DNA of 64,000 nucleotides, from positions 22,322,501 to 22,386,500 of the forward strand of contig OY727094.1 in NCBI GenBank assembly GCA_963402885.1. The letters are read 5' to 3'. This DNA is from Antedon bifida (taxonomy: Eukaryota > Echinodermata > Crinoidea > Comatulida > Antedonidae). Under the pieces are notes generated by a model. It had not been told where the DNA came from. It searched no databases and saw only the letters and a list, made by a program, of their open reading frames with translations. The first letter of the stretch is position 1. Every line of letters begins with the position of its first letter. Position numbers and translations under genes: made by a program. Of the stretch, positions 13,241 through 64,000 are shown piece by piece.

Positions 13241-13434
13241 CAGACTGTAAATATGTTATGAAATAAAATGTTAAAGTTTTCAATGTTATAAAAAAAAAGC
13301 ATAAATACTGAAATATGATCGTATCGTATCATACATTACCTAAACTTCTACAAATAGTAATATAACCAAATGTTAGGGACAGTTGTTCAAATTAATCATC
13401 ATATTGTAATCTGTGAATACAATATAATAATTAA

Positions 13435-13800
13435 AGATGTATTGTCCCCCTGAAAAAATAATTCTTAACAACATTTTTGTTGAATATGCCATTTTAATGT
13501 CACCTAATAGTTATCCACTTTGACCAAAAATTGGATCGAAAAAAAAATGTATTTACCTAAAAAAACTGTAATTTAAAGCAAAAAATTGTCAAATTGGCTT
13601 CCAGCCAATGGGGTTTTGGTTTAATTTAAGCATTTATTTTGTCATTTTATAAGTGAAAACATTATTTTTTTGTGGTTTTTTTTCTACGGAAGTGATTAAC
13701 TTTATTATAACTACAAAATAACATATTCAAAGTCCGATTTAATTAATCCATACTGTACCTCTATGATAAATCGCATAAAGGTTATAGCACCACCTGTTGG
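13435..13800 (+). mobile_element. TTAA-flanked MITE fragment (family AGATGTATTGTCCC)
   Basis: TTAA at 13431-13434 is followed by AGATGTATTGTCCC, the terminus of the complete element at 43658-44189. The inner sequence (gttatccactttgaccaaaaattgg) matches that element's inner sequence as well. No matching right terminus is seen, so the copy is truncated or has diverged. Its right limit is approximate. Confidence 0.7.
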
Positions 13801-41400: not shown

Positions 41401-44400
41401 ATGTACATTTTATGGTAAATTATGATAAAAAGAAAGAAACAATGCAACTACCTAAGTAGCTCGCGATAAATGTCCTCTCGTGGACGGTATTTAGGCTTAG
41501 CCTAGTTAGCTATGCTCACGATAACCATTCACGTTTTCGCAAATGGCGATTGGAGTGGTCAATGCGAAAAATTGATATCATTCACAAAACTTGTGAAAAT
41601 ATTTTTTCTTTAAAATCTCAAACTTTCATCTGCCTAGGCTCCGAATAAAGTTTTATGGAAACCACAACGACTTCGATACCGTCGCCAGCCTATAACTATA
41701 AGCGATAGCAATGTAGAGATATTACTTGCCTATCAACAACGTTTTTTTCACGTTACTTGAGTAAATTAAAACAAGATTAGCCCGATGTATAGTTGCTGCA
41801 TTAATTAGGTGATCATTTAGAATAAAATGATCACCTATTGTTATTGTATAAAATCTTTATTATTTTTTTTCTTTTTATTGTTTCTGTACACTATTTTGTG
41901 TAACAATTATCTCAAAAAGTTTAATGTCAATGATTACAAAAATTTCAGAATATCTTTCAAATAATATAACTTAATCCTAATAAGCTTTCCAGCGTGATCA
42001 CTCATCCGTGACGACATTTATACGCCATTTTGCGAAATCACATTATCAATCATATCTCCATAATTCATTATCACATATTAATGAAATTCACTACACGTAA
42101 ACTTCAGATCAAGGGTAAAAATATTAGCAAATAAAAACGCACGCGCACGTAGTTTCATCACGTGTTAAAAATTTAAAACGCTCAAAATTAAGTTTTGATC
42201 AATTTAGAGCATGAATTAGGCCATTTGCGTGTTTCAAAAAATTGCTGCGCAAAAATGCGTTTTTGCGCGCGCGATACTTAAAAAGCGTAAAAAATATGAA
42301 TTTTTTTTACAAATCTCATTTTACTCACCATCCTTAGTACATTCACCAAATTTGAGTCAGTTCCGACTTAAAATAACGCTATACGAGCACGTTAAAAATG
42401 ACAAAATGCGCACATTAATTTTACAAAAGTTCTGAAAATGGTGAAAAATAGGTCTTTTTTAAAATGAAAATATTTCTTCAGAATGCAAGATGACCCCCGA
42501 TTTTTTTAACTTATTCTGGAAGCCATTGAGTTGTAGATATGAATTCATGTACACATTTTACTTACAAAATGTTTTGACGTCATCAAATGGCCACTTGAAT
42601 TTAAAAATTAGGATTTGTTATCTTTTTGTGTAGATTATCACATTCAACAGAGCGCATCTTGGTTATGTGTGCTCGAATTTCGCACAACTTTCAGTATGTG
42701 CTTGCTTAATTAATTATCTTTATCATGAGTTGACACTATCTTCATTTTAATGACGTCATCACGCGTAAAAACTTGAATAACGTAGGCCGTGTAATTTCAC
42801 CTTCGCAGTAAATTTGAATATCTTACAGCTCTTCAGAATTGAAGGTTACCTTGATGATTATAATTTATTATGAAAGCTGATGAAATGTAGATATTAATTC
42901 ATATAAAAATTAAGCCTATCGGATGTTGTGACGTTAACATATGGCGAGTTGAAGTGAAAAAGTAGTTTTTTCATATTTTTCGTCAAAGTTATACACAATT
43001 CAAAGAGCGCGCACAGCGCTTCTACTTGCCAAATTTTTTTCCAAATCTTATATTTTTTTGCTCAATTAATTATCTTTCGAAATTGTCATCTTAAAGTTTA
43101 GTTTGATAACGTCATCATGCCAAAAAATTAGAACATGTGTGTCCCGTAATTTCACCTATGCTACACTGTATATAGATATACAGTACTGTATATACTGTAC
43201 ATATTGTATATGGCATATAGGCACAACTCAGCACTATAAGCATATAATAGGATGGCATACATCAACATTTTCCGATCGTATGTTAACGTACGTGCATGTT
43301 TAAAAAAAATTAATTTCAGTAAAATGATAAAAATGATCACCTATAATTCGTCAAAGTGACGAATTAAATTCTAGTTGTCTTTTTGTTTTTGCCAGACTCT
43401 GTTGATACAAATTGGGGGAAACTCGGTATTTGGCTTCGTGATCGAAAAGTGGGTGAATTACACAATAAAAACAAAAATATCAATCCGCGCGCAATGCACG
43501 TTAGGATTTATAGCGGGCCACTAAAATTATTAGAATCGTCTTATTTTTCACATTTTAACGAAAAAAGGACCTCAATAGGACCATACAGTAATTTTTACAT
43601 TATATGTAGTTTGTTACCTTAAATTAGATCTAAAAAACATAGGGAATGGGACTTTAAAGATGTATTGTCCCTTGAAACACAAAAAATGAAAAAAAAAATA
43701 TTCTAAATTTAAATTGGCCATATCAAAGTTATATTAAAGTTATTCACTTTAGGTCGAAAATTCGAGCCAAAAACAAGTTTACGTAATTAACAGGTAAATT
43801 AATTTGATTACATTTCGTCTGGAAAATCGTCACGAGCGAAAGTAAACAAAGATTTCAAACCACGAGTATGCATTATGCATGATGCTAATTAGGATTGTTT
43901 ACAACTCGTCACAGTTGAGAAGGTTTTTCACACAGATTGCGAGGAAGTTTTATGATTATGCATACAGAGTAGCCAAATAAGCGCGTTGCATTATGAGATA
44001 TGTTTTGATCGAAAACTTAGACTGGAAGTCAAAGTTATTTTTTTTAACAAAAAAACGTCTGTATTTCAGTTAAATTATTTTTTTTTTGACTAATTTTTGG
44101 TGAAAGTTAATAACTATTATGATACTTCAAACTTTTTTTCAAAATATAAAAAAAAATTTTTTTTTATTAGTCAAAGGGACAATACATCTTTAATGTACTC
44201 ATAATAATAATAATGGTAGTCTTATATAGTGCCTAATACAATGATTTTAAGCACTGAAAAATGATCCATAAAATATTCAAAATAGAAGAAAAGCAGAGAA
44301 ACCATTTACACCACTCTGTTACCTTAATAACACCAATGTTGCCAAAAAACTCAGCAACTGCTTCTTCCGTTACATTAGTACCAAGGCCACTGACAAATAT

Positions 44401-57740: not shown

Positions 57741-57744
57741 TTAA

Positions 57745-58010
57745 AGTTGTATTGTCCCCCAAAACATGAAAAATAAAGATGAAAAAAATCAAATTTTGAA
57801 TAGACCATTTTGTAGTTATACTAAAGTTACTCACTTTCGCCCAAAAAAATCCGGGAAAAAAAACGATTTTACTTACCAAAAAACCGATTTAAAATCATCA
57901 TTTTTTTCGAACTCGGAGCGCTCATATTTCAAAATACTGTCGTTTAATCATCAACTAATGAATATGCACGATATGCTAATGACCACATACTTTTTGAGCG
58001 ACGGCCGCCG
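57745..58010 (+). mobile_element. TTAA MITE fragment (third member)
   Basis: TTAA (57741-57744) is followed by AGTTGTATTGTCCC, and the inner sequence (gttatactaaagttactcac) matches the element at 43658-44189. The right end was not found, so the limit is approximate. Confidence 0.7.
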
Positions 58011-58396
58011 GTAATCGAAAAAAAGTTTAGGGCCTAGTGTCGCGATTATCGGAAAACTTGTGCGCTTAGAGCGTGAAAGATTGTTTTTGCATCCGATTGT
58101 CGAAAAGATAAAAAGCCTGAAAATCTAAATGGATTTATCGGTAGGTGGAATTGTTTACATTAGTTATACGCACTTTAGATACTACTCCTAGGCGCCCTAG
58201 ATGAATAGTAAAGATGACCCCAATGGATCAAGAAGAACACCTCTTCACAAGTCAACAGAATGGCTGGTCCGTCCCGTCCCGGGAGGAGAGCAAGGACGAT
58301 AGGCTCTCATCTCAATTAGGCCTATCTACTCTTTCTACTAGGTAGAGGCCTACTCTTTCTACTAGGTAGAGGCCTACCAATAAGGAGGGAATATAC

Positions 58397-58466
58397 AGTA
58401 TTTTGATATCAAACCATAATCAATAGAAATTGACTGTGATCAAACCAAAAGTAATCATGTCACACT
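58397..58466 (+). repeat. 70-bp direct repeat, also at 59533-59602
   Basis: gatatcaaaccataatcaat, then agaaattgactgtgatcaaa and ccaaaagtaatcatgtcaca, occur upstream of the P2X7-like exons and again in the intron after exon 59200-59442, with two or three differences. A neighbouring phrase (attcaagtatttatttgatt) is also doubled at 59506 and 59628. Confidence 0.9.
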
Positions 58467-58806
58467 GTATCCGTTTTTTTTCTTCTCCATTCTGTTTGGC
58501 CCATCCATAATGTCCTACTAGGCTACTCTAGTAGGCCCTAGTCCTAGGTTTATATGTCTATGCTAGAGTCCTGATAACTAGGAAACCTGCCTATGCTAAA
58601 TAAGTACTAGACACTAGGCCTAAAGTAAATGAAAGGTATACTTTGCTAGGATTAACTGTACAAATATTATGTTTGCAGCATATATAATTTTATAAATACA
58701 GTAATATTATTTTAATACATACTGTAAGTACTTGTGTTGTTTCCTATATAGGCCTAGTGCATATATTTATTTATTTTTTTTGTGTTGTACCTAATATAAT
58801 TTGTAG

Positions 58807-60067
58807 TTATTTTCAAGTACATCATCTGAACCGTCAAGTCCAGAAGTAGGTTTAAGACAAAGGCAACGAGGAAGGGGAAGAGGACGAGGTAAAGGAAGAG
58901 GGAGAGGAAGGAGAGGGAGAGGAAGGAGAGGGAGAGGAAAGAAAGATGGAACCCATATTGTTCTACAACAGAGAGAAGAAAACATTTCTGTAAGAATTTT
59001 TTATTTTGTGGATATATGTCTAGAATGGAGATTTAAGAACGTGAATGTTTTATGATTATTTTTTTAAGTTATGTATCATGGAAAACCAAAAACATAGGAA
59101 AGTTATTGGATACCAGCATCCCAAATAAATAGCTTTAAAAATGAAAACATTGGTTTTGTAAATTACTATATTTATATGCAGCCTGTATTTAATTTGCAGT
59201 CAAAAATAGATGCACTTAATGAGAATGAAGTCCGGAATCTTTTAAAAGAGGCAGCAAAAAAAAATCCTGGCTTGATTCTAAGTGTTTTGGATAGGCAACA
59301 GCTGCCTGAAAGAGGACATCACCCAGATGCTGATGGAGCTGCACCAGACTGGTGTGTGTGCCACGCCTGCCGTGAGATGCCGACACAGGTAGAGCGAATG
59401 TGTTGTGGATATAATCCCGATAATTGCACATCCCTACTTCCAGTAAGTACAATATTTTAATTTTTTTTAAAGAAAAATTGCTTTACATTAATATTAATTT
59501 TTATTCAAGTATTTATTTGATTTGATACTTTGGTATTTTGATATGAAACCATAATCAATAGAAATTGACTGTGATCAAACCAAAAGTAATTATGTCACAC
59601 ATTGCTTTACATATCATTGATATTAATTATTCAAGTATTTATTTGATTTGGTATTTCTAGTTTTAGCAACTACATAAAAAAAAAGAAGAAATATGACCAA
59701 CCCCCTTATTTTAAACAATTAATCCCCCATTTGTATCACTTTGCAACATATTTAATACACATAAATATAGTAAAGAAATTTTTAACATTTAACAACATTT
59801 TTTTAGGACTTTGAACTGCTTGTTCTGAATGAGGCAGTGTTAGACATTGCGCGGGCATACCGGCAAGATGTTTTAGTTGCCCCATTAGACAACAACTGGA
59901 GCAGAGGCCATAGGCATACTGCCTACAGACAGTATATTTTGTGGCAGCATGGCAGACTTGGCATAGGAATTCGCAGGACTATTCCAAGTTGCTGCGTTTG
60001 GAAAATACGAGACCGCTATCCTGATGAATTCGGCCAATACGTTGGGTTCCAACCAGCTCGTATATAA
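58807..60067 (+). CDS. P2X7 C-terminal 'ballast' domain protein without a channel
   Basis: Three phase-0 exons join without a stop: 58807-58989, 59200-59442 and 59807-60067 (stop TAA 60065-60067). They give about 228 residues. Residues 1-61 are basic and Arg/Gly-rich ([20 protein letters not shown]). Residues 62-228 carry the zinc-binding ballast domain known from the cytoplasmic tail of vertebrate P2X7. Cysteines lie near 113, 115, 118, 129-130 and 137 ([10 protein letters not shown], then E-R-M-C-C-G-Y), with [11 protein letters not shown] in the middle and [20 protein letters not shown] at the end (P2X7: S-C-C-R-W-R-I-R-K-E-F-P). No P2X channel segment lies upstream, so it is a stand-alone member of the family thought to be the source of the P2X7 tail. 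An ATG exon was not fixed; M-A-G-P-S-R-P-G-R-R at 58260 is a candidate with no good donor. Function is unknown. Confidence 0.9.
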
Positions 60068-60265
60068 AATCATTGTACATTATTTATAAATAAAACAAAA
60101 ATATTTTGTTCATATATGATGTAATGGGAAAAAAAAAAATATTACAGGGAATATTTTGAAATTGTAATATGAGTACATAATAAAAAATGAGGTAATCATT
60201 ATATCTATTATACTACTGTATAATATATTATATTACTGTATATCAATCATGAATTTCTGGATTAT

Positions 60266-63200
60266 TCAAAATCGTGATAATTTGTCATCAACTAATTGCT
60301 GTGTTGGTGGTGGCTGAACTTGAGCAATTGTTGGGCAAATTCTTCTAGGATCATTTACATCTAAATCCAATGCTGCCTTCAAACTGGTATCGTCCATTAA
60401 TCGCAGCTCAACAACCATTTCAAACAAGGTTTGGATGTACCCATACGTTTTCTCTTCTTTGACAGGTACCACTGTCCACCTTTTGCTTTTTTTGTTAAAT
60501 AAACGTTGATACCTAATAAAGAAAAGCAGAATATTGTGGGCCAAGTGAATTACAATTTCACATTGTTTAATTATCACTGTATATAACAATGTATCATTTA
60601 TTGTGAGAATGTTAAATTGATCATGTTTATATGGAATTTGGAAAGCAGATCACATCCACAAATTGCTGACAGTTGAAACAAATACTAAATTAACTAGAAA
60701 GTATACCGTGTGGTCCCATCATTATTCTTTTTTATGGGTCTCTGGTGGTTTGATGTATAATCCAATGCTGCTATTAGATTTCTTGCCTTGTAAACTGGTG
60801 GGCTATAGGAAAAACGCTTAGCAGCATACATCAGAATGCACTGGTGGAAATTTTCCAATTCAGCTGTTCCTCTAAATATAAACAATACATTGCTAATTAT
60901 TACTAAATGTATAATTTATAGAACAATTTAACATTTATTGTTTACTGTAAAAAGAATAAAAAATCCTATTTCAACACAGTAGGTTCTCAATACAGTTTTT
61001 TTCTACATCCTACACAAAGTACTCACCGGAAATTGAGCCAGTATGGAATCTTGTTGAGGAACCTTTTGCCCAAAACAATGTTCCTCAATGCATTATGTGC
61101 TGGATCGCCTTTTGCTAACCAGCCTTTATCTCTATCTGTTTCTAATGGGCCATGGCTGCAACAGGCCGTTCCACTATCACTGTACGACAACATCCATTCA
61201 TGTTCGTTGACGACATGGTGGATAATTCCACACCAAATACCCTTTTATTGTATAAACCACAAAGAGAAAATTATAATAAAAAAATTATAATCACTGACAC
61301 TGGAATTGTCAAGATTATTAACATATCATACATCCTGGTACAGTTAAATGCATTTCTGTTATTCATCATACATTAACCATAGGCATACTGTACTTACCAT
61401 GAATTCATCATATGTGTTTGCAACCTCGCATGTATGCCAGAAATGGTTCACAATGTCTTGGCTCCAACTTAGTAATGCTTTGCACTCTTTTTTCTGTCCT
61501 GCCTAGTAACATATATTCAGAAAATAAAGTTAAGAACATGAGTTTACAGCAGGAATCTTATGACTACATATTTTCTATGTATTTATTTGTATTAGTTGAA
61601 CTTAAGATTGCCCCTGGCATTAATCTGTCCAGCTGGAAGCGTTACCCTCTATAAATAAAACAAAATACAAAAAATAATAAATACAGTATTCAAACTTACT
61701 GCAACCAACTTTTTTGCCAGATTTTTTGCAGCATGCCAGATATCATGAGAATGTTTTATCTCTGGATAATCTTTTTCTGATAAAAAAAAATACACAATAG
61801 CACATTTTATATAATGGATATACAATTCATGCAATTTTAAATACTGTGAAAATTTTACTTTAATAACATTGGCATTATCAAGTATAATCTAAGTTTAATG
61901 TCATAAATTTTACAGAAAAGAAATACATACTCATTATTGCACCAATTTGCATATGTGCATCTGTAACACATTCAATCACCCTAACATTTCGTTCCTCAAG
62001 AAATTTTAGGCTGTCTTGAAATCCGACCTTTTCCATTGCTGTACTCTTACCACCGGTTTCACGCTTGTCCAGGGTTATAATTGACAGAATGCTTTTGTCT
62101 GCATTGTTCATCATGGTGTAGGTACAGAATTGTGCGGAATGGCCTGGGCTGTCCATTCTGCCATCTCCTAAATATAAAGATTTAGTAAATTTATTAGATT
62201 TCACGGTTTACAAATTAAACCATTTAACCCTCGATATATCAGAATTTAGTGTAAATTACAAAACCTACCAAGCAAAACAACCTCCTTTCCTTCATGACTT
62301 TTTAGAATCTCCTCCTGTGTTTTATCCCATAACTTGTTTATAGATGGAACCAGATAGCGTCTTTGTATTCTGTAAAATGTGTTATAATTTACTATATGCA
62401 GTTTCATGAACTTGGCAAACAAAGCTATCTTTCCATAGTTGTTCCCAGAAGCCAATATAGCAGTTGATGTTAACAGGTCACCTCCATGAAGATGGTTCTT
62501 CAAAATTGGTTGGGAACACCACTTATTGTTTAGATGCCCATTAACACATATCTTAAAAATATAACAAGTATTAATTAATAGATACAGTACTATAGTGTCT
62601 TTTATGAGAGATCACCACTAGAACAAGAAATTTAGCAGAAACTTTTTTTACTGTTCTTTGCTATTCAATCATGTACATGGTATGTTCAAAAGTGATGAAA
62701 GTGATGTCCTACCCATTTAAAATATATTGCTGATCCAATAAACTTTGTGTTCATGTTGACAGGCTTGTTGCACGTTTGCTTGGAACAGGTTTTATTTACA
62801 GTCATGGACGCCAAAGATTTTAAACAATTTGCATACACCAAACATGTCTCATCATTGAGGAGTATTGGAGAATCTTCCATAATATTGACATGTTTAATAT
62901 TGTCAGAAGATTCTTTATCGGTTTCTTCTTCTTCCTCATCATCACTGTAAAATTCCTCCTCAAATTCCTCTTCAGAAAAAGTTGTTTCTTGCAGATCAAG
63001 AGCTGCAGTAGGACTATAATAAAGTACAATGAGACTTTATTCAAACTTAATTGCTTTTCATGAAATTAAGATTACTTATTTTATCAAATTACAATTAATT
63101 AATACACAATTTTAGTTTACTACCAATGTAGACTAGAATTTAGTTTTAAGTTTTGACCACAGATTCTTTATGTAGAATAGTATGGAATATAAATTAACCA

Positions 63201-63706
63201 TTTCCTTCGACTATAAAATAAAAATAAAAGCACACTATTGTCAAGTCACTGGCATTATGAACGGCAATAATATGTAGTACAGCTTTAGTAATTGCATTTG
63301 AATAAAATTTAAACAGTAGTCTTAAAATAGGCATTACACAATGACAATGTTACATGTAAACTTACCACAGGAAGATATTAAAAGGAGGGTCGTAGTCTGG
63401 ATCATCATCATCATACTCATCCTCATCATCATCTGATTCACTTATGTCAATTTCAATAGTCATACTAGAAAAACAAGCATAACACAGTTTTAATTGCAAT
63501 ACAATTGTCTACCTAACTTGACATTGGTTGATGGATATTAAATGATTTGATTTCTATGGAATTTGAATTCAATGTTTATGTACTGTACAATCACCATAAA
63601 CTGTTCACCATCAGTACAACATGCATTCTTTGTTATTGCAAAATATATTTACTTTGACTTTCCAGCATTGCTTTCATATTCTGCCTTTCTTTCAGTATCT
63701 CTTTCA
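60266..63706 (-). CDS. Multi-exon transposase-like protein with RNase H-like fold
   Basis: Ten exons join in one frame on the minus strand: 63706-63653, 63464-63366, 63013-62713, 62551-62269, 62167-61931, 61776-61700, 61502-61398, 61241-61027, 60871-60707, 60512-60266. They give about 593 residues with no stop; the 5' end lies beyond. In order: an acidic region (20-100), a Cys/His region (K-T-C-S-K-Q-T-C-N...I-C-V-N-G-H...W-C-S-Q-P, 130-165), then RNase H-like landmarks G-D-G-R-M-D-S-P-G-H-S-A (246), V-T-D-A-H (313), SHDIWHAAKNLAKKL (334) and GTAELENFHQCILMYAAKRF (458). The last is a likely acidic catalytic position. The pattern is that of uncharacterised transposase-like proteins common in fish and invertebrates; the superfamily is not assigned. 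Intact frames and consensus splice sites suggest a host-maintained or recently active gene. It ends 198 bp from the P2X7-like stop, tail to tail. Confidence 0.85.
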
Positions 63707-64000
63707 CTAAAAATAAAAAAATATCATTTAAACCATTGAATATTCACCCTTTTCAATTGTAAAATATTGTTTAAATAAATAAATTACATTGTATAGTGCA
63801 TCATTACAGATTTACTGTACATTCACTTGTCAGTGACCTTACAGAAGGAGTTATTATTTACTAACAATTTACATTGAGTGCCTTTGAAGCCCACCATCAC
63901 ATACCATTCCCAGAAGTATCACATCACATCTCCCAGGTCACAAGAAACATAGAAAATGTAATGATTCTTAACAAATATAATATACCAATGCCATCTGATA
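63707..64000. other. Intron or upstream part of the transposase-like gene
   Basis: The exon at 63706 begins inside a codon (xxT), so at least one upstream exon exists, here or past the window edge. None could be fixed. Confidence 0.5.

Follow-up and report, generated by a model that had tools for sequence, protein, structure and literature searches.

Two convergent genes and the element around them

The DNA analyzed here (the window) is a stretch of 64,000 nucleotides from Antedon bifida (contig OY727094.1 of assembly GCA_963402885.1, positions 22,322,501 to 22,386,500), towards the right-hand end of which two genes converge: a plus-strand gene for a P2X7-ballast protein, KolX, and a minus-strand gene for an RNase H-like transposase. 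The KolX stop codon lies at 60065–60067 (+) and that of the transposase at 60268–60266 (−), with 198 bp between them. The gene models were built from splice signals and reading frame; every join in both is GT-AG and in frame, and both genes are free of internal stops in all three copies described below (C7, which is the window copy, C14, and C8, where splice sites were not inspected individually). A preceding sequence-only reading had proposed this facing layout, spacing and lack of internal stops, all of which stand in the models, together with ten minus-strand exons; ten do lie inside the window, but the whole transposase gene has 13, three of them past the window end. The ballast exons it had annotated also hold, with a probable short first exon to be added, and the interval that it treated as one unit (58807–63706) does belong to a single unit, the true extent of which is larger (57741–65550).

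KolX is modeled with four plus-strand exons coding for 232 amino acids. Exon 1 (58129–58140, encoding MDLS) is probable, being deduced from its start codon, donor and frame, and the same 12 bases occur in the other two copies. Exon 2 (58807–58989) encodes an Arg-Gly-rich basic tail and is shortened by 15 nt, in frame, in the C8 copy, exon 3 (59200–59442) carries the first zinc-cysteine cluster (residues C117, C119, C122, C133, C134, and C141), and exon 4 (59807–60067) carries the remainder of the ballast fold (the RH pair, C208, and C209) and the stop. The KolX introns hold a 68-nt direct repeat (58398–58465 and 59533–59600, 97% identical).

The transposase gene runs on the minus strand from 65210 to 60266 and encodes 778 amino acids. 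Exons 1 (65008–65210), 2 (64363–64623), and 3 (64047–64136) lie beyond the window, and are followed inside it by exon 4 (63653–63706), the acidic exon 5 (63366–63464), and exons 6 (62713–63013) and 7 (62269–62551). The motifs, read from the sequence, begin in exon 8 (61931–62167) with the putative catalytic residues D432 (GDGRxDSPGHSA) and D500 (VTDAH), and continue with the DxxH signature (D521, H524) in exon 9 (61700–61776), an H2CH zinc-finger-like motif (from H578) in exon 11 (61027–61241), and the putative last catalytic residue E648 in exon 12 (60707–60871), while exon 10 (61398–61502) separates the second and third of these and exon 13 (60266–60512) contains the stop. D432, D500, and E648 are assigned as putative catalytic residues by motif.

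Both genes are parts of an element of 7,810 bp, including both TTAA copies, that occupies 57741–65550 and extends past the window end by its final 1,550 bp. The in-window part (57741–64000, unstranded) was delimited by its ends and length together with an identical copy on C14 and a 97% identical copy on C8. The left TTAA target duplication (57741–57744, unstranded) was recognized because each of the three insertions has a paralogous empty site that bears just one TTAA, and the right one (65547–65550) lies outside the window. Next to them are the left terminal inverted repeat (57745–57760, +), 16 bp long and starting with AG, and the right one, AGATGTATTGTCCCCC, on the minus strand and ending at 65546. 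Both ends read TTAAAG(T/A)TGTATTGTCCCCC in inverted orientation, that is, four target bases and a 16-bp repeat, the two repeats being identical at 15 of 16 bp (one mismatch). The sequence-only reading had recommended looking beyond 58–64 kb for exactly these structures, inverted repeats and target duplications, and both were found there.

The mitochondrial COX1 of the host (contig C27), set against a mammalian COX1, has AAA at 4/4 Asn sites, ATA at 10/14 Ile sites and TGA at 6/6 Trp sites; this is code table 9, used by echinoderms and flatworms, and makes an echinoderm the likely host. In the genome, a 494-base query from the ballast gene had matches at three places. The C7 and C14 copies are identical over 7,811 bp, while the C8 copy (7,747 bp) is 96.5% and 97.2% identical to the window element in its two pieces; the flanks differ among all three. 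In order to recover empty sites, flank pairs were joined around one TTAA and searched against the genome, and a paralogous uninterrupted site with one TTAA at the join was obtained for each of the three insertions. These sites lie on C11 for the C8 insertion (95%), on C14 itself, about 4 kb away, for the C14 insertion (94%), and on C15 for the C7 insertion (87%), which is the weakest case, with small gaps near the junction. As for the surroundings, the C14 copy (C14:5468739-5476547; L004, L007) sits immediately downstream of a coding end that resembles a C-type lectin (PF00059, E 2.6e-4; 22.1 bits, just short of the 22.6 cut-off), and the C8 copy (C8:22910054 flanks) is inserted within repeated sequence with many genome matches, which by eye resembles a non-long-terminal-repeat retrotransposon and has no Pfam match.

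Copy divergence and pairing across the genome

Divergence between the C7 and C8 copies is unevenly distributed: 12 of 3,018 aligned coding sites differ versus 68 of 4,651 non-coding ones (Fisher p 2.6e-6), and indels are multiples of three in 3/3 coding versus 4/24 non-coding cases. Synonymous changes affect 7 of 630 sites and non-synonymous changes 4 of 2,382 (p 0.0025), with synonymous versus non-synonymous counts of 3 vs 1 for KolX and 4 vs 3 for the transposase (p ~0.04 each). Small as these counts are, they point to selection on both proteins.

Matches to P2RX7_C make up 42 stretches of the host genome and, with four more obtained from the exon search only, define 38 KolX loci, while a 450-amino-acid piece of the transposase matches 99 stretches that define 38 transposase loci. 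Of the 38 KolX loci, 23 have a transposase match no more than 2 kb away, and in every one of these (23/23) the two lie tail to tail. Six further KolX loci (L054-L058, L075) face a more diverged transposase in the same way, which brings the tail-to-tail pairs with a Kolobok transposase to 29 of 38; no locus has a head-to-head pair. At one more locus, C12:13984701, the transposase is 6.8 kb away and in tandem. The other 14, the six just named among them, had no nearby transposase match in the first search. Of these, C11:17831892, C12:20522705, and C14:13272819 score like L075 and were kept outside the 29 counted, their loci not having been read; and at L051 a frame resembling a transposase can be seen by eye on the other strand, with a weak match only (E 0.54). 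Also unpaired are C16:18903122 (not read) and a last group made up of C8:19338362, C8:21081145, and C8:21084859, within which one locus has a weak 19-residue transposase match on the same strand. A cluster of decayed KolX pieces, 63–65% like exon 3 of the window KolX, lies at C8:21081145-21087425 (L012, L013, L015), with no clear transposase in these loci.

In nine families with both proteins readable, the distances between KolX proteins track those between transposases (Mantel r 0.83, p 4e-4), and the correlation persists when one of two close families is dropped (r 0.74, p 0.0097); the stretches compared are short, about 50 amino acids of KolX and about 100 of the transposase. That the genes keep facing each other throughout these families, and that their proteins have diverged in step, argues that the element benefits from carrying KolX.

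The two proteins and the short relatives of the element

KolX matches the Pfam family P2RX7_C (PF20478) with an E value of 1.4e-31, which places a ballast-fold second protein in the element, as in the Kol0 type, and matches the solved P2X7 chains in the PDB at E 1.5e-17. Identity to the P2X7 C-terminal ballast domain (PDB 9e3m; PMC7016195) is 39% across the domain, and all eight KolX cysteines align with the zinc-region cysteines of P2X7; seven of the eight recur in a distant KolX from elsewhere in the genome. Among the five guanosine-pocket residues named for P2X7 (PMC7016195), equivalents of R546, H547, and R578 are kept and those of R574 and K583 are missing. Unlike P2X7, KolX is not fused to a P2X channel and has a basic Arg-Gly N-terminus (17 Arg/Lys and 13 Gly among the 38 residues 18–55), the calculated isoelectric point of the whole protein being 9.7; the description of a basic, RG-rich zinc protein in the sequence-only reading thus agrees with its sequence. 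A search of the genome for a fusion of P2X channel and ballast domain found none: the 12 P2X stretches lie in two places on C7, and about 490 kb separate them from the closest match to KolX. KolX was also looked for in viral contigs, where 19 stretches fitted a pattern and none was confirmed.

The transposase has Pfam matches at E up to 10 that are all below the cut-off (the MULE family, E 0.016), and it is assigned to the Kolobok superfamily because of its motifs, the element ends and its same-genome relatives. Its putative DDD/E triad has the C/DxxH signature between the second D and the E, and the H2CH-like motif from residue 578 provides a putative zinc finger between C/DxxH and the last E; this H2CH-like motif is also visible by eye in the L016 and L021 transposases. 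The element termini, AG ... CT with inverted repeats, follow the 5'-RR ... YY-3' rule of the superfamily, and the 4-bp target duplications are TTAA at all three insertions. No THAP domain was detected by Pfam (whole protein and N-terminus) or by tblastn in the three copies, although tblastn finds one at 12 of the genome loci examined (L016, L017, L021, L022, L039-L042, L044, L045, L073, L075), three of which were confirmed by Pfam. In the place where THAP would be stands an N-terminal module without a Pfam name, which has relatives at two other genome places, the best being on C11 (48%) and C7 (35%). The C11 relative (C11:12745121-12745306, L080) stands alone, with no transposase match in the 4 kb examined there.

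The genome has 6,614 sites that match the 20-base end of the element with at most one mismatch, and none that match the reversed control. Among the first 100 end sites listed, 44 form 22 facing pairs less than 1 kb apart, against a chance expectation of about one pair, and 19 of these 22 span 293–359 bp. The exact left-end variant occurs just 23 times in the genome, and therefore most sites bear the other type of end. A 516-bp derivative (L081, C8:2707863-2708378), flanked by TTAA on both sides, has the left 20 bases fused to the last 500 bp of the element at 98.6% identity, and is likely a newborn short element that arose by internal deletion. The window transposase may mobilize these short elements. 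Two short non-autonomous elements with the same end type are also present in the window, at 13431–13750 (where 13431–13592 is an 81% match to the element's right end and 13650–13748 a 76% match to its left end) and at 43654–44193, where both ends are present with two mismatches each.

A Kolobok transposon with a ballast protein

Very probably, the two genes form part of an autonomous cut-and-paste DNA transposon that has moved recently and is of the Kol0 type within the Kolobok superfamily, as indicated jointly by its ends, TTAA duplications, three copies, empty sites, open frames, and divergence pattern, and by the recurrent pairing and co-divergence of the two genes. Cut-and-paste movement into TTAA by a DDE transposase is well supported by this anatomy. 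By analogy with the superfamily, the transposase would recognize the AG-starting inverted ends, perform the catalytic step, excise the element, and insert it into a TTAA, which would be duplicated, with KolX carried tail to tail as a second element protein. Several points weigh against this reading or the pairing on which it leans: the transposase lacks the THAP DNA-binding domain that is usual in the superfamily (PMC6004289), even if the available portion of PMC9587614 does not give THAP as a defining feature; at the thresholds applied, no match to KolX lies within 20 kb of 15 of the 38 transposase loci, where KolX is hence lost, undetected or dispensable; copies inside one family are non-independent, which bears on the pair counts; and the synonymous counts per gene are small, with one of the eight transposase substitutions falling outside the single-change codon count and left unclassified.

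Other origins of the locus fit less of the evidence. The sequence-only reading had offered, next to a two-gene mobile element, a domesticated pair, and a host locus of two genes that descend from an old Kolobok element would indeed share the open frames and the purifying-type divergence expected of host genes, P2X7 and Nanor having themselves been argued to be domesticated KolX (PMC9587614). However, the domesticated reading is unsupported because the unit moves as a whole, and an identical copy elsewhere, intact ends, TTAA duplications and empty sites contradict it, which makes it highly improbable; the inverted repeats, TTAA duplications, three copies and paralogous empty sites bear out the mobile element instead. 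That two unrelated host genes are adjacent by chance has nothing in its favor beyond bare possibility, and is contradicted by their joint movement in three copies and by the tail-to-tail arrangement at 29 of 38 KolX loci; the sequence-only reading would have attributed the link to chance had the two been neighbors only in this genome, but the pairing is also published for Kol0-lineage elements of other animals (PMC9587614), and coincidence can practically be dismissed. A piggyBac-type element, for which TTAA targets and the KolX-like C-terminal part seen in a few piggyBac families (PMC9587614) could be cited, is just as implausible: the AG ... CT ends obey the Kolobok RR/YY rule, the GDGR-D...TDxH...DxWH...H2CH...E motifs are those of the Kolobok relatives in the same genome, KolX retains all eight cysteines, which are mostly missing in the piggyBac versions (PMC9587614), and there is no piggyBac Pfam match at E up to 10.

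Within the Kolobok transposon, the contribution of KolX is the less certain part. Our preferred but tentative suggestion, over other accessory roles, is a nuclear accessory or cofactor of the transposition complex, given the co-inheritance of KolX, the apparent selection on it and its basic, zinc-bearing character, and given the DNA-processing proteins that fill the same slot in other Kolobok lineages (PMC9587614); its Arg-Gly tail could bind nucleic acid and its zinc ballast could serve as a protein- or nucleotide-binding platform. An equally conceivable alternative is that KolX acts outside this complex as a host-facing passenger (e.g., an anti-silencing or expression factor), retained because it raises the spread of the element. 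Linkage, selection and co-divergence are compatible with any beneficial role, KolX matches are missing near the 15 transposase loci noted above, and in other Kolobok lineages unrelated accessory proteins (exonucleases, RecQ, and a His-Me nuclease) replace KolX (PMC9587614). On the other hand, those proteins are nucleases and helicases, which suggests a DNA-processing slot, and KolX has its basic Arg-Gly tail, neither point being decisive against a passenger. A bolder and rather unlikely version of the cofactor reading would have KolX as an obligate, long co-inherited cofactor, with the conserved RH...R pocket of its zinc ballast sensing either a guanine nucleotide or nucleic acid, the P2X7 tail as a reused transposition-control module, and the THAP domain as replaced by a different N-terminal DNA-binding module serving inverted ends of the same type.

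Kojima and Bao (2022, PMC9587614) described Kol0-lineage Kolobok elements that encode a KolX with the ballast fold and derived the P2X7 tail from it. The idea behind the sequence-only reading is therefore right, yet already in print, and our analysis confirms rather than opens the link, since both the kind of element and the KolX–P2X7 connection are published; no other paper on this connection was among the matches listed in our literature searches. With the Kol0 lineage (type Kolobok-1_XT; PMC9587614), the window element shares the TTAA duplication, the AG/CT ends, a DDE transposase with DxxH and a zinc-finger-like motif, and the ballast-fold second protein, and differs in having 13 exons, no detected THAP domain, and facing genes, the KolX strand of the published families being unstated in the available text of that paper. 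KolobokP (PMC9587614) also combines a Kolobok transposase with a downstream accessory protein on the opposite strand, but that protein is a His-Me nuclease and its elements have terminal direct repeats of 450 or 660 bp; we rejected this identity for lack of such repeats, as a whole-element comparison with the identical copy gave no direct match from left to right end at E 1e-5. Xenopus XKol elements (PMC6004289) are alike in TTAA, AG-starting ends, a length of 6.8–13.9 kb, and DDE and H2CH motifs, while their transposases have the THAP domain that is absent here.

What is new is a recently mobile family, with a THAP-less transposase unlike its neighbors and ends that match 6,614 genome sites. 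With its intact frames and identical copies, this family offers a natural test bed for the role that the ballast fold had before it became the tail of P2X7.

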